NCBI GenBank assembly: GCA_015067885.1
Contig: SVLO01000008.1
Coordinates: forward strand, 1 to 64,000
DNA length: 64,000 nucleotides
Direction of reading: 5' to 3'
From: Oscillospiraceae bacterium
Lineage (GTDB): Bacteria; Bacillota; Clostridia; Oscillospirales; Oscillospiraceae
The notes below the pieces were generated by a model. That model was not told the DNA's origin. It searched no databases and saw only the letters and a program-made list of their open reading frames with translations. This document shows, in pieces, positions 4,214 through 47,518 of this stretch. Numbering within the stretch: position 1 is the first letter of the stretch; every line of letters starts with the position of its first letter. Position numbers and translations under genes: made by a program.

Positions 4214-5092
4214 ATGAGTATTGACATGACAAAATGGTGTGACCTGGCCAAGCAGAACGTCCACAACCGTCCCGCCGGCACCGGCCGTATGGCGGGCAAG
4301 ATCGTCGTCGTTACCGGCGCCGCCCAGGGCTTTGGCAAGGGCATTGCTGAGGAACTGTACAACGAGGGTGCCAGCATCGTCATCGCAGACATGAACCTGC
4401 CCCTGGCCGAGCAGGTTGCCAAGGAGATGGGCGAGCGGGCCGTTGCCATCGCTGTCAACGTCTCCGACGAGGAGAGCGTGGCCCAAATGGTGGGCAAGAC
4501 CGTGGAGGTCTTTGGCGGCATCGACCTGATGCTGGCCAACGCCGGCGTGGTCCGTTCCGGCCCCCTGGCCACCTTCGAGAAGAAGGACTTTGACTTCGTC
4601 ACCAACATCAACTACACCGGCCTGTTCCTGTGCTGCAAGTACGCCGCCATCATCATGCAGGCCCAGCACGAGGCCGACCCCGAGGCTATGTTTGACATCG
4701 TGGCCGTGTCCTCCAAGTCCGGCCTGGAGGGTTCCAACAAGAACTTTGCCTACGCCGGCTCCAAGTTCGGCAGCATCGGCCTGGTGCAGAGTTTTGCCCT
4801 GGAGATGTGCGAGTACGGCGTGAAGGTCAACGCCGTGTGTCCCGGCAACTACCTGGACGGCCCCCTGTGGAGCGACCCCGAGCGCGGCCTGTTCGTGCAG
4901 TATCTGAACGCCGGCAAGGTACCCGGTGCCAAGACTGTGGAGGACGTGCGCCGCTTCTACGAGGCCAAGGTACCCCTGAACCGCGGCTGCCTGCCCATCG
5001 ACGTGGCCCGTGCCGTTATGTACTGCGTGGAGCAGAAGTACGAGACTGGTCAGGCCATCCCCGTTACCGGCGGTCAGGTCATGCTCAACTGA
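4214..5092 (+). CDS. SDR family NAD(P)-dependent oxidoreductase (sugar/polyol-phosphate dehydrogenase-like)
   Basis: 'VVTGAAQGFGKGIAEEL' Rossmann motif, 'YAGSKFG' catalytic YxxxK, 'VNAVCPGN'. Confidence 0.92.
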   Translation: MSIDMTKWCDLAKQNVHNRPAGTGRMAGKIVVVTGAAQGFGKGIAEELYNEGASIVIADMNLPLAEQVAKEMGERAVAIAVNVSDEESVAQMVGKTVEVFGGIDLMLANAGVVRSGPLATFEKKDFDFVTNINYTGLFLCCKYAAIIMQAQHEADPEAMFDIVAVSSKSGLEGSNKNFAYAGSKFGSIGLVQSFALEMCEYGVKVNAVCPGNYLDGPLWSDPERGLFVQYLNAGKVPGAKTVEDVRRFYEAKVPLNRGCLPIDVARAVMYCVEQKYETGQAIPVTGGQVMLN

Positions 5093-41004: not shown

Positions 41005-41045
41005 AAGAACGGTAATTTTGATAGAATTACCGTTCTTATTTTTTG
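41005..41045 (+). terminator. Intrinsic terminator after tRNA-Pro
   Basis: AAGAACGGTAATT-TTGATAG-AATTACCGTTCTT followed by a T-run. Confidence 0.9.
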
Positions 41046-41239
41046 CTTAAATCCCTTGGGCTGTATGGGGTCGGGCTTTATATGAAAACGCCACCAAGGT
41101 GAAAATCCCTGATGGCGTATTTTTGCCGCTTTTTATGAGGCTAGCGGATAAAGTGAGCGATGGACTATCGGCAAAAAACTGCATAAAGGTGGTAGCTGAT
41201 TTGTTTCTAAGGCGAGGAAATATCTATTTCGACAAGATG

Positions 41240-41268
41240 TTGTGATGGTTGATTTTGCGTGGTATAAT
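41240..41268 (+). promoter_or_regulatory. Promoter upstream of lipoprotein gene 41345
   Basis: TTGTGA - 17 nt - TATAAT. Confidence 0.6.
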
Positions 41269-41344
41269 ACTCTAGTAGTTATTGCATAATTATCGAACGG
41301 GAAAAGTTAGCACAAAGAGAAACGCGAAGAAGGGAGTTTAGATA

Positions 41345-42238
41345 ATGAGAAAAGTGTCAAAGTGCATTTTTATTTCAGTAATAGGAGCGACTATTTTGTT
41401 GCTGCTAGCATCCTGCGGAGCGCCGGCGGCGAAAAGCGAATCAGATATTCGTGCGGATATATCGGGAAATGACCGTTACTTTTCTGACTATAACCTCACA
41501 TTAGAATCCATGTCCGTCGTCAAAAGACAAACAAACCAAGAGGACAAGACAGATTATGTGTGGATCAGCGTGACGGCAAAAAACAATGATTTTACATACA
41601 ACGCAGATTATGAGCTGATGTATGTTCTATATAATGAGGGGTGGCTGTTAGAAAACTACACGAGATCCACATCTGATTTCACTCCAAATTATTACCCAAC
41701 AGTTGATGATGCTGCAACAGCAATCAATAATTATGCTGATGGATGTACCCTCATAAACACAGTGTCATCAGAGAAGAAAATGACATATCAGTTTAAACGG
41801 GAAGAAACGAAATATTATTTAACCACGGAGTATAGAACAGATTTAGTTTATGAGTTTACCCCGGGTTCAGGATGGAGAGCTTCTATACATGAAACAGAAT
41901 TATCGCATAAACCAGATATTGTGGGAGAATGGATTTATCAAGACGATCTAAGGTATTTCTATGTTAATATTATCAGTGTCGAAGACGAAATAGTTACGTT
42001 GGAATACAATCTCGAAAATGTTCACACCTCCTATAGCGAAACAACAACAAAAAAGACTACTTCTCCGGTTAGAATAGAACTCGGTGGAATACAAAGAACA
42101 GGCTACTCCATTTGCCTTGATCCATATAGCGTATATGGTAATATCCATATTTATGTTGGTGACGAGAATTATGAACTGACTGAAAGCACGGGATGTGGGG
42201 TGAGCTGTGATGGATATTTTTTGAAGAGAACTAGTTGA
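41345..42238 (+). CDS. Hypothetical lipoprotein
   Basis: Signal peptide and lipobox 'ILLLLASCGAP'; AT-rich; no family recognised. Confidence 0.8.
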   Translation: MRKVSKCIFISVIGATILLLLASCGAPAAKSESDIRADISGNDRYFSDYNLTLESMSVVKRQTNQEDKTDYVWISVTAKNNDFTYNADYELMYVLYNEGWLLENYTRSTSDFTPNYYPTVDDAATAINNYADGCTLINTVSSEKKMTYQFKREETKYYLTTEYRTDLVYEFTPGSGWRASIHETELSHKPDIVGEWIYQDDLRYFYVNIISVEDEIVTLEYNLENVHTSYSETTTKKTTSPVRIELGGIQRTGYSICLDPYSVYGNIHIYVGDENYELTESTGCGVSCDGYFLKRTS

Positions 42239-42355
42239 AAGAGTATGTTAAACATATTTATATCCTTAAAGAGTATAGTGCAACTGATAGTTTAAGTGAA
42301 GAGCGCAACCCACTTCACCGAATTTGCGATTCTATTAGAATATACGCACCAATAC

Positions 42356-42398
42356 AAAAACGACAAGTTTCGAAAGGAACTTGTCGTTTTTTCTTTTG
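42356..42398 (+). terminator. Intrinsic terminator
   Basis: AAAACGACAAGTTTCGAAAGGAACTTGTCGTTTTTT. Confidence 0.85.
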
Positions 42399-42472
42399 TT
42401 TGTTTACCCTTGTCTTTTCTGCTACAACTGTAGTATGATGATAGCATATAGATTTGCACAGGAGGCGCGACG

Positions 42473-43666: not shown

Positions 43667-43700
43667 AAACGGCGGATGGGATCTCCCGTCCGCCGTTTTT
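43667..43700. terminator. Terminator hairpin, copy A of a duplicated pair
   Basis: AAACGGCGGATGGG-ATCT-CCCGTCCGCCGTTTTT. Confidence 0.85.
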
Positions 43701-43839
43701 CCACCTGCGCCGACGATATGCAAATCGCTGCGATTGGCCTTAGCTATTGATTTTTTGAAGGTACAGTGCTATAAATAACTTAAGAAAGGACAAGGGTTTG
43801 CAGGAACCCGGGGCCGGATGAAAAAGGAGAGTCAAAAAG

Positions 43840-45282
43840 ATGAACAGAAAGAGAGTAATAGGGCTGCTGATGAGTGTGGTTTTGATGCTGTCATGCGTGG
43901 CCTGTGGGTTGAGCAACAGAGAAATGGAAGATATCGCGGCGTCGTATATACGTCAAAACACCCAATTTCATCAGGTTACGGTGGATTCGGTCGAGGTACA
44001 TTCGAATACCTGGTTTTCGGCCGAGTGTACTGTGGCGCGCCGTGGCACTTTCTTTGATCTGAGCGGAACGGTCAGAATCAGCCTGACCCGGGTGGAAACA
44101 TTGGATGGCGTAAAATGGGAGCTTAGCGGCGACCCGATCTATTCCAACTGCACAAGCGCGTTCCACGAGCCGGGGGACGAGTATTACCTTTACAACAAGG
44201 GAAACACAACAGAGCTGTTTCAAATCAAGGAGATGACGGAAAACAGCGTGCGGGTCAAAGTGTATGGACACGACTTGGACAGTCCTATGATGTATGCTCC
44301 GGCCCGAGATGAATATTACAATGGCGAGCATACCTGGTCTTTGCGGTATTTGGAGCAACTGCAGTGTTTTGAGTTCGATTATTACGATGTGGGCAAGGAA
44401 TACCGCATTTATCCGGACTGGGTGGAAGTAAGCTTTGAAACTGCGAACGTTGGTGTGCGATACACGGATTACAAACGGGCGGAGTCCGAGAACCCCGAGG
44501 ATTATTGGTGGTTTGAGCGGGCTATGAACGCGGGGCGGACGCAGCCGGACGGTACGCAGGTGGGTGAAGACGAGCCGGTTGTAGAGCCTGACACCCCTCG
44601 GCCGGAGCCTCAGCAGCCGGAGGAGCCTTTGGTTGCGCAGCCTGAAGTGAAAACAGTGACTGGCGACAGCTTTTCTGGAGCGCTTAACACAACGGAACAA
44701 ACGGACTACTACAGTTACACAGCGCCCAGAACCGGTGTGTATTTCTTTGCTTTGGATATTAACGATGTGAACAAAGACTATCAGTTTTCTATTTACAACA
44801 GCAAAAAAGGTCGGGTGGTGCAGATCAAACGCTCTGGAGCAAGGAATGGCAGTTACCAGCGCGGGACCTGCGTTTCTTTGACAGAGGGAGAAACTTACGA
44901 GATACGAGTGGGCGAGGCGTGGAGCGCTTGTTCCTACACCGTTGCGATCATGCAGCCCAACGCGCCCGGACAACTTAGCGGCGAGGTCAGTCGGGGGACG
45001 TTCCGTTTTCCTGAGCAAAAGGACATATACACCTTTGCGCCAGCGGAGTCGGGTACCTATGAGTTTTACTTTGGCGACACAAAATCAGATGGGGACTACA
45101 CCATTACGATTCGTGAAGGGGAGAGCCGTCGGCTCATCAGTACGCGGGTCAAGGCCTTGCAGATCAACGACTGGACCATTGAACTTCCGCTGACAGCGGG
45201 ACAGGTCTATACCGTGGAGCTGGAGCAACTGGTACAGATGCGCGAGTACTCCGTGCGTGTAAGCAAGAAGGCAGAAGAATAA
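43840..45282 (+). CDS. Hypothetical lipoprotein with C-terminal PPC-like beta-sandwich repeats
   Basis: Lipobox 'VVLMLSCVAC'; Pro/Glu-rich linker; two repeats of 'SFSGALNTTEQTDYYSYTAPRTGVYFF' / 'GEVSRGTFRFPEQKDIYTFAPAESGTYEF'. Confidence 0.78.
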   Translation: MNRKRVIGLLMSVVLMLSCVACGLSNREMEDIAASYIRQNTQFHQVTVDSVEVHSNTWFSAECTVARRGTFFDLSGTVRISLTRVETLDGVKWELSGDPIYSNCTSAFHEPGDEYYLYNKGNTTELFQIKEMTENSVRVKVYGHDLDSPMMYAPARDEYYNGEHTWSLRYLEQLQCFEFDYYDVGKEYRIYPDWVEVSFETANVGVRYTDYKRAESENPEDYWWFERAMNAGRTQPDGTQVGEDEPVVEPDTPRPEPQQPEEPLVAQPEVKTVTGDSFSGALNTTEQTDYYSYTAPRTGVYFFALDINDVNKDYQFSIYNSKKGRVVQIKRSGARNGSYQRGTCVSLTEGETYEIRVGEAWSACSYTVAIMQPNAPGQLSGEVSRGTFRFPEQKDIYTFAPAESGTYEFYFGDTKSDGDYTITIREGESRRLISTRVKALQINDWTIELPLTAGQVYTVELEQLVQMREYSVRVSKKAEE

Positions 45283-45288
45283 TAGGCA

Positions 45289-45324
45289 AAGGGCGATGAT
45301 TCAAACAGAATCATCGCCCTTTTA
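45289..45324. terminator. Intrinsic terminator
   Basis: AAAGGGCGATGATTC...GAATCATCGCCCTTTT. Confidence 0.85.
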
Positions 45325-45377
45325 CTGCAAAAGAATATAAAAACACACACTTCTCTGCGGGAACAGGGGAGTGTGTG

Positions 45378-45599
45378 TTATTTGTATGGCCTTTTTTGGT
45401 CGGTCAAGCCGATGATGTAGTCTGCCGACAGATTGTAGTATTTGCAGAGGGTAGCCAAATCATCGATTTTAAGCTCGGCACGACCAACCTCAATATGATT
45501 GTATCCCTGTTGAGATTTGTTCAGTAATCGCCCCAATTCAGCCTGTGACAGGTCGCTGTCCTCGCGCAAACTCCGAAGTCGCTCTCGATAACAGGACAT
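45378..45599 (-). CDS. XRE-family helix-turn-helix transcriptional regulator
   Basis: 'RLRSLREDSDLSQAELGRLLNKSQQGYNHIEVGRAELKIDDLATLCKYYNLSADYIIGLTD'. Confidence 0.93.
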   Translation of the reverse strand: MSCYRERLRSLREDSDLSQAELGRLLNKSQQGYNHIEVGRAELKIDDLATLCKYYNLSADYIIGLTDQKRPYK

Positions 45600-45632
45600 G
45601 GGTATCCCTCCTTTGCGCTGTTAGGTTACCAT

Positions 45633-45677
45633 ACTCGGATATTGAGTATTGACATATACTCAATATCCGAGTAAGAT
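45633..45677. promoter_or_regulatory. Perfect 17-bp inverted repeat (probable XRE operator) overlapping a consensus promoter
   Basis: ACTCGGATATTGAGTAT-TGACAT-ATACTCAATATCCGAGT; TTGACA (45649-45654) -17 nt- TAAGAT (45672-45677) on + strand. Confidence 0.8.
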
Positions 45678-45771
45678 GAGTGTAAAGACACGGCGGAAAA
45701 GCAGGGGCTTTTCTTGCTGGATTGTCTGTCGGGACACACCGGCGTTTCAGTAAAAAAGGGAGGCAATAGAA

Positions 45772-47424
45772 ATGAGAACTCACACGAAAACCCGCTTCGG
45801 GCAATGCAGACGATGGTTGAGCCTGTTGTTGGCAGCAATGATGCTGACGACGCTTGTATCCTGCGGCGGGAAGTCCAATGAGAAGCTTATTGAGGAGCGG
45901 CTCACCACCTTTGCCACCGCTTATAACGGCGGCGATATACAGGGGGTATTGTCCTGCTTCAACATGGAAACGCGAAATGCTTGCCAGGCGATGATAAATT
46001 TGTTAGGTGGTCTTGCAAGTGCAGGTACGGGACTCGGCATTGATCTGAATGATTTGTTTGCCCTTGGGGTGAGTATGGCCCCAGGGGATTTCATGGGACT
46101 GAAAATCAATGAGATCGTGGTTGAAAAGGACGGTAAGCGCGCAACGGCGGCAACAACCATGAAGCTGGTCGACGAAGATGAGGATCAGACAGTGTACTTC
46201 ATCATGGTCTATGAAAACGACGGCTGGTACATTGAGGATATGTCCCTGCAGGCCAATATCGGCTCTTCGCAAACCGGAGTGAATGTTAACGTTCTGAGTG
46301 CGCATGAAGTTGACGATGGATTTTCGGTAATAAATAAGTTTCAAATGAATTCCCAAGCGTACTGTGGAGTAATTAATGCCGAGGGAGAGATTATTTACGC
46401 CACTCCAGTAGGCGAAAGCTTTGTGTGGAAGAGTGCGGGAAATGGTTGCGGGTTTGTCATGCTCGAACCAGACGTAGGAAGAATGTATTACTCATATATT
46501 GTGTTCGACAGTGATGGAAAGAAAACCTTCACAGTGAACGGAGATGTATTTGACTTGATAATTGGTTGCGGTGACGGTCTGCTTTTTGTCTACAAGGATA
46601 CATCCACCATCGAGAAAGAGGAACATTCTTACGGTGTTTTAGATTGCAACGGAAATTGGATTACTCCGCTCACGGCAGGACCGGAACTAATACTGCCGGA
46701 GAGCAAACGAGAGTTTTATAAATACGTTGGCGACGGCGCATTTATGTCGGATGGCAACTTGAATACCTACAATAAACGGTATAGGAATATTTTGTACAAC
46801 AGCCATACAAATTGTGCTTATTTGATTAATTCTGATTATGGGTATATAACGAGTTATCCTGAAGAAGAAGGGGCAGAAAAAACAGATTTGCCAAGAAAGT
46901 ATATTATCAATCCAGATGGAACGGCCGAGGCTATGCCTGAAACGGCCATAGATGTGCGGGATAATTTGGTATGGATGGGAACAGATACGGGTATCCAAAT
47001 TTTGGACAGAGAAACCGGTATTACAAGAGAATATACCGAGTTTCCAATCGACATGATTCGTGCCGTAAAATATGACAGCGATTCCGAAACATTTACAGTG
47101 ATTATACAAGGTGTGGACGGTAAGGTATATTTCACGGTAATCGATAAGGAATGCAATCAGAAGTTTGACCCAATTGTTTCTTATCCTACGGGTTGGAATG
47201 GCATCTATTATATCTATCCTGGCTCAAATGGCAGAATTGCCTATTGCGACGAGAGTGGTGTCTACAAGGTAATCGACACCGACGGAAACGTGATCGTTCC
47301 CAACACCCAGGGGTTCACGAGTATTGGCGCATACAGTGGTGGAATGGCATTGGCAAGCAAGGACCAAAGCTGCTTCTTCCTTGATGTGAACGGACAGGTT
47401 TTGGACATTAAGCTGCCGAACTAA
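45772..47424 (+). CDS. Hypothetical lipoprotein with WG-repeat-like C-terminal region
   Basis: Lipobox 'MLTTLVSCGG'; N-terminal DUF-like domain; later segments 'YGVLDCNGNWITPL', 'VYKVIDTDGNVIVPNTQGFTSIGAYSGGMALASKDQSCFFLDVNG'. Confidence 0.8.
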   Translation: MRTHTKTRFGQCRRWLSLLLAAMMLTTLVSCGGKSNEKLIEERLTTFATAYNGGDIQGVLSCFNMETRNACQAMINLLGGLASAGTGLGIDLNDLFALGVSMAPGDFMGLKINEIVVEKDGKRATAATTMKLVDEDEDQTVYFIMVYENDGWYIEDMSLQANIGSSQTGVNVNVLSAHEVDDGFSVINKFQMNSQAYCGVINAEGEIIYATPVGESFVWKSAGNGCGFVMLEPDVGRMYYSYIVFDSDGKKTFTVNGDVFDLIIGCGDGLLFVYKDTSTIEKEEHSYGVLDCNGNWITPLTAGPELILPESKREFYKYVGDGAFMSDGNLNTYNKRYRNILYNSHTNCAYLINSDYGYITSYPEEEGAEKTDLPRKYIINPDGTAEAMPETAIDVRDNLVWMGTDTGIQILDRETGITREYTEFPIDMIRAVKYDSDSETFTVIIQGVDGKVYFTVIDKECNQKFDPIVSYPTGWNGIYYIYPGSNGRIAYCDESGVYKVIDTDGNVIVPNTQGFTSIGAYSGGMALASKDQSCFFLDVNGQVLDIKLPN

Positions 47425-47482
47425 ATACTGTTAGATGAGCTTTACACGCGATAGCGGTTGAAACACTTGGGAATAAGGAAAG

Positions 47483-47518
47483 AACAACGGCGGACGGGAT
47501 CTCCCATCCGCCGTTGTT
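47483..47518. terminator. Terminator hairpin, copy B of a duplicated pair
   Basis: AACAACGGCGGACGGG-ATCT-CCCATCCGCCGTTGTT. Confidence 0.8.

Follow-up and report, generated by a model that had tools for sequence, protein, structure and literature searches.

A perfect inverted repeat in an Oscillospiraceae genome is part of a conserved, putative tandem-operator XRE switch with variable cargo

A perfect inverted repeat beside a small XRE gene, found in a 64-kb stretch of DNA (64,000 nucleotides, referred to here as the window), belongs to a real and conserved regulatory module, for which the more fitting description is a solo XRE switch with tandem operators and variable cargo. Judged from sequence comparison, the element very probably controls a self-contained XRE switch, which would repress both itself and whichever gene lies divergent to it. 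Recurring as it does beside dozens of unrelated genes, which often encode surface proteins, it looks like a portable on/off module and not like a one-off phage remnant. What results is, for one repressor subfamily, a precise operator sequence (TACTC-N7-GAGTA, present as two copies separated by 6 bp) and the recognition-helix signature that goes with it, KSQQGYxHIExGRAELKIxD, so that target genes can be read from the DNA of dozens of gut lineages that are not in culture. The open papers searched contained no account of either the operator or the XRE subfamily.

Two operator dyads between divergent promoters

The repeat was known from a preliminary description as a perfect 17-bp inverted repeat with a 6-bp spacer. 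It is present, with arms that an inverted-repeat tool extended to 18 bp (45632-45649 and 45656-45673), and it is a tandem pair of dyads, not a single operator with 17-bp arms. Each arm is itself a dyad of the form ATACTC-N7-GAGTA(T/A), which gives four half-sites and two 19-bp operators, 6 bp apart and with centers 25 bp apart. The predicted xre-proximal operator, O2 (ATACTC-GGATATT-GAGTAT, ATACTCggatattGAGTAT; 45631-45649), overlaps the predicted xre promoter and lies upstream of its extended -10, and the predicted cargo-proximal operator, O1 (ATACTC-AATATCC-GAGTAA, ATACTCaatatccGAGTAA; 45656-45674), lies between the -35 and the -10 of the cargo promoter and covers the first three bases of this -10. 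Both assignments come from the sequence and from the conservation of the half-sites in 97 loci. When up to three mismatches were allowed, the half-site was found in the 64-kb window only at the two repeat arms, compared to 0.04 occurrences in shuffles. A half-site search of the whole genome, which the preliminary description had proposed, likewise returned the two arms and nothing elsewhere in the 1.93-Mb assembly (87% complete) at up to two mismatches. The operator pair thus occurs once in this genome. A wider regulon was considered and rejected, as dyads with up to two mismatches were at the control level (23 compared to 26), and no second target of the XRE protein was found in this assembly, which at 87% completeness could miss a distant one.

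The dyads are flanked and overlapped by two predicted promoters. A promoter scan and the aligned loci place the promoter of the divergent lipoprotein gene at 45649-45677 on the plus strand, with TTGACA at 45649-45654, TAAGAT 17 nt further on at 45672-45677, and a predicted +1 near 45684. The coordinates bear out the earlier observation that the edge of the spacer supplies the TTGACA, and the promoter matches the consensus at 10 of 12 positions. Among the 97 aligned loci, the cargo-strand -35 is exactly TTGACA in 78, and the -10 is exactly TATAAT in 44 and has at least five of six matches in 85. On the minus strand, a predicted extended -10 of xre (TGGTAACCT, TGn-TAnnnT; 45623-45631), with an expected +1 near 45616, follows O2, and TGnTAnnnT is found after O2 in 64 of the 97 loci. 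Both -10 elements of the window, TAAGAT for the cargo and TAACCT for xre, are weaker than the family norm. An RNA element was rejected: no conserved leader follows the cargo -10 across the 97 aligned loci and Rfam gave no match, which argues for a DNA operator, and the repeat lies upstream of both predicted starts.

As described previously, the XRE gene diverges close to the repeat. It occupies 45378-45599 on the minus strand, with 33 bp separating the start codon from position 45633, and encodes a 73-aa XRE/HTH_3 protein that consists of the HTH domain only (Pfam HTH_3, E = 5.5e-12, 46 bits against a curated cutoff of 23), an assignment that the AlphaFold model, a fold search, and helix conservation also bear on. 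A hairpin terminator (45339-45382, minus strand), recognized as an inverted repeat, by a terminator scan, and from the sequence past the stop codon, comes right after the gene, and xre appears to be monocistronic. The AlphaFold model (pLDDT of 94.9) has five helices, no strand, and no second domain; neither the model nor Pfam gave an oligomerization, sensor, or cleavage domain beside the HTH in the 73 residues. The best fold matches, with TM-scores of 0.6 to 0.8, included P22 c2 (top), 434, DdrO, ImmR, C proteins, and CylR2, none of which reaches E = 0.001, as is common for so short a chain. The best sequence-profile match was ImmR (1.2e-5). There were also PHROG transcription-regulator matches and a PADLOC Control_protein match at E = 0.006 only, and the score for the RstR family (NF041951) was 31 bits, under the curated cutoff of 80 bits. 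The modeled fold is of the phage-repressor/C-protein/ImmR type of HTH.

Conservation of the operator together with the XRE protein

Linkage between the operator and the XRE gene was seen from both directions. In a protein search, 80 loci were found to encode XRE relatives that are 66 to 80% identical, in MAGs of Clostridia, most of them from animal guts, and paired dyads lie upstream of xre in nearly all of these; orthologues without one or both operators are L054, L083, L110, and L111. The second search started from the DNA pattern alone and covered about 754 genomes of the family and order. It detected the paired operator at 42 distinct places, at most one per genome, compared to none for a reversed control pattern in the same genomes. 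In 41 of the 42, the operator is followed by an XRE orthologue carrying the K[ST]QQGYxHI signature, and the exception (L128) is about 250 bp from a contig end. In the nonredundant set, the xre start is 27 to 100 bp downstream of the operator. Across 97 distinct loci, the half-sites are nearly fixed and the 7-nt cores vary. The arrangement had been called unusual, which these counts contradict, since the same switch is present in about 5 to 6% of the family and order genomes sampled. One MAG gave two loci (L077 and L100). The single copy per genome is not evidence of exclusion, since a prevalence of about 6% predicts no more than one or two double carriers.

The part of the protein that would contact DNA is conserved along with the operator. 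The predicted recognition helix and the loop following it span about residues 28 to 47 (KSQQGYNHIEVGRAELKIDD). In 96 operator-bearing orthologues, K28, Q30, Q31, G32, Y33, H35, I36, E37, R40, A41, L43, and D47 are fixed, and S29, G39, E42, K44, and I45 are at 97 to 99%. In contrast, in 21 operator-less paralogues (42 to 52% identical), positions 28, 31, 32, 35, 40, 41, and 47 vary, residue 36 is Y, and residue 44 is mostly P. Helix coconservation and the 41-of-42 linkage both bear on whether the XRE protein recognizes the dyad near its own gene, and together they are strong comparative support that it would. By eye, several paralogues (L017, L019, L021, L022, L026, and L029) show the tandem layout as well, with different dyads and with GTCAA or CAA at the center. 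As they share the layout and differ in the dyads, the window switch looks, by inspection rather than by a statistical test, like one specificity class of a broader tandem-operator XRE set.

Variable cargo and absence of the segment from a congener

The divergent cargo of the window (45772-47424, plus strand) encodes a 550-aa predicted lipoprotein with a lipobox (LVSC) and an SD sequence. Of the earlier label of a WG-repeat-like lipoprotein, the lipoprotein part holds and the WG part is weak, with a single Pfam WG_beta_rep match below the cutoff (E = 0.0016). No full-length relative of this protein was found in 30 congeneric genomes. The flanks carry metabolic and envelope genes (ackA, a nan-type cluster, AraC, and peptidoglycan-binding proteins), and no phage genes were found among the flanking genes tested, in agreement with the preliminary description; R-M genes are also absent from the locus. 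A defense system was rejected as well, as PADLOC gave nothing for the two lipoproteins of the window and only weak HTH matches for the XRE protein.

Cargo genes differ from locus to locus. The 96 cargo proteins compared (those of 94 divergent genes, the L184 cargo, and one window neighbor) fall into 73 clusters, 62 of them singletons, and the genes downstream of xre are just as unrelated, with 88 clusters among 95. Since the neighbors on both sides are unrelated between loci, the conserved unit, as far as the sequences tell, is the operator plus xre. Some trends in the cargo were apparent. Predicted lipoproteins make up 22 of 94 cargo genes compared to 16 of 227 control genes (odds ratio of 4.0, p = 1e-4), and membrane or secreted proteins make up 66 of 94 compared to 89 of 227 (p = 4e-7); these figures are approximate, because starts and localization were assigned by simple rules, a few of the 94 are doubtful, and the controls come from the same loci. 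Pfam matches of the cargo include BspA-type LRR, zinc-ribbon, DUF5067, host cell surface-exposed lipoprotein, SLH, RHS, sugar transferase, alpha-amylase, and EcoRI-type methylase. The methylase is the only one among the Pfam families listed for the 84 cargo proteins scanned. It is found in L077 (1646-3871), where the switch is divergent from the methylase gene, which is followed by a DUF262/HNH nuclease-like ORF, by inspection a restriction-like pair. Induction by envelope stress would be a conjecture, as the cargo is enriched for envelope proteins and no more. If the swapping of cargo is real, the module is an example of a regulator that is conserved while its target is not, and of a small, defined switch acting on accessory envelope genes.

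The switch and its cargo lie in a segment (43670-47513) that is absent from the congener G778. In that genome, the flanks are 84 to 94% identical and ackA is directly beside the araC-type gene (the empty site in L183), whereas in the window the two are separated by 3.8 kb containing a lipoprotein gene (43840-45282), xre, the operators, and the cargo lipoprotein gene. At 48%, the GC content of the segment is lower than that of the flanks (about 61%). The segment is bracketed by two near-identical 26-bp terminator hairpins (43670-43695 and 47488-47513), which have no further copies in the genome and suggest insertion at, or recombination between, the terminators of two convergent genes. A second low-GC segment (38%; about 41030-42450), with a predicted lipoprotein gene at 41345-42238, is also absent from G778 and sits between a tRNA-like 3′ end and ackA. 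In a second case, L095 (G012) has a cargo gene and xre where the matching place in the congener G180 lacks both; G180 has the switch elsewhere with another neighbor (L009). For both comparisons, a deletion in the relative could be the alternative. Locus L095 also has dispersed repeats (889-1169 and 4432-4472) that occur in many copies in that genus, one of them just downstream of xre. In an xre tree (213 columns), the family labels need 19 changes compared to 25 when shuffled and a minimum of 10; this tree is poorly resolved, and its mixing of families would suit frequent transfer without being proof of it.

Viral and plasmid sequences contained few relatives. No exact tandem operator was detected in 2.9 million viral contigs, and the only close relative found there was L184, an IMG/VR contig with an XRE relative, a TACTC/GAGTA tandem operator, a zinc-ribbon-like cargo of a family common to L005, L040, and L042, and, by inspection, TerL- and capsid-like ORFs. 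It is possibly a prophage-adjacent copy. One 68%-identical relative comes from a "phage" scaffold that is unverified, and the 23 matches in plasmids all stay below 60% identity. A phage or plasmid module was therefore rejected. The term "phage-type" used in the preliminary description suits the fold, which matches the P22 c2 and 434 repressors; it does not extend to the tandem operator, given its absence from the viral contigs. A broader picture, which we offer tentatively as a possibility, is that of a portable module of ∼300 bp that circulates between gut Clostridia families, has become joined to 70 or more unrelated cargo genes (for the most part envelope or accessory ones), and exists in several operator-specificity classes. 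Such a module may silence newly acquired genes and, by a burst of expression when it enters a cell without the repressor, serve as a general timer for genes gained by horizontal transfer.

Proposed mechanism, alternative explanations, and known systems

In the proposed mechanism, two XRE dimers would occupy the adjacent dyads O1 and O2, which are overlapped by two back-to-back sigma-A promoters, one of the TTGACA-N17-TATAAT type reading into the cargo and one with an extended -10 reading into xre. Occupation of O1 would shut off the cargo promoter, and occupation of O2 would shut off xre, resulting in negative autoregulation. Because the XRE protein lacks a sensor domain, derepression may come about when the repressor becomes scarcer, when an antirepressor partner acts, or when the module enters a repressor-free cell. 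One operator repressing both genes had been suggested earlier; the comparative data agree that one region can control both, with two operators in place of one.

The long perfect palindrome might instead be functional in its own right, as a cruciform, a hairpin recombination site, or an RNA hairpin, with the XRE gene as a bystander. Its perfect 18-bp arms would suit this, as would an excess of mirror-image cores: in 15 of 97 loci, the O1 core is the exact reverse complement of the O2 core, where shuffled pairing predicts 2.6, and among the 79 distinct core pairs the count is 11, with 1.1 predicted (p = 5e-5). However, the other 82 loci retain their XRE gene, all four half-sites, and the spacing of 6 bp although their cores are not exact mirror images. 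Both transcription starts are predicted to lie downstream of the repeat, which also has no Rfam match. This reading is highly improbable. The same counts modify the earlier equation of the repeat symmetry with the operator, in that the repeat does mark the operator region of the adjacent XRE gene and the arm-to-arm symmetry is found in those 15 loci only. Direct identity of the two cores is at chance (1 compared to 0.9 expected). As a symmetric dimer should be indifferent to orientation, an excess of inverted but not of direct copies points to copying between inverted repeats. Template-switch homogenization of quasi-palindromes is a known copying process of this type (PMC7202029, PMC8604942) and possibly underlies the mirror-image cores. 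The perfect repeat of the window is probably a by-product of the tandem dyads and not a selected feature.

Two further explanations retain the XRE protein as the regulator and differ in its logic or its origin. A controller-protein logic, in which activation from the distal site at low dose and repression from the proximal site at high dose would make a delay timer, is unlikely. It would fit a small HTH-only protein whose gene is preceded by paired dyads and followed by a terminator, the fold matches include C.AhdI, C.BclI, C.EcoT38IS, and C.Csp231I, and L077 has the switch divergent to a methylase gene and an HNH-like ORF; C proteins activate via OL and repress via OR (PMC4321490). However, a cargo promoter this close to consensus should need no activator, both dyads overlap core promoters, the Control_protein match is marginal, and the window locus has no R-M genes. 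A remnant of a prophage or integrative-element immunity region, i.e., a CI/ImmR-like repressor that kept its operators after loss of the phage, is improbable too. The phage-repressor fold, the PHROG matches, L184, and the relative in the "phage" scaffold speak for it. Against it stand the viral and plasmid counts given above and the unrelated neighbors on both sides, and dozens of lineages preserve the complete architecture, as would be expected of a functional module more than of a decaying one. An autorepressed XRE switch thus remains the preferred reading.

By layout, this switch would work like an R-M controller (C) protein such as C.AhdI, C.Esp1396I, or C.Csp231I, small HTH-only dimers with two palindromic operators upstream of their own gene, which form a concentration-dependent genetic switch (PMC4321490). 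For example, C.Csp231I uses separate dyads (CTAAG-N5-CTTAG), as in the window. In contrast, the window operator is TACTC-N7-GAGTA with a 6-bp spacer, its second promoter is divergent and near consensus, the cargo is unrelated between loci, and the lack of R-M genes departs from the genomic criterion of that family. With P22 c2, the 434 repressor/Cro pair, and ImmR of ICEBs1, the switch shares the HTH fold, a repressor gene divergent from the controlled promoter, and multiple operators, whereas its XRE protein has no C-terminal oligomerization or cleavage domain and no phage or ICE genes were found around the window xre. CylR2 of Enterococcus faecalis is an HTH-only regulator of similar size, located between divergent genes, with a C-terminal beta element. 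It is among the fold matches of the window protein (2xiu), but the window model has no strand, and CylR2 controls one fixed target operon compared to many cargo genes here. RptR of type I R-M defense islands is likewise a small repressor that many genomes share together with its conserved binding site (PMC12255303); RptR differs in its TAGCTA palindrome in direct repeats and its one cargo type, whereas the cargo of the window switch is not constant. By the tests made, the switch resembles both R-M controller proteins and phage repressors and belongs to neither.
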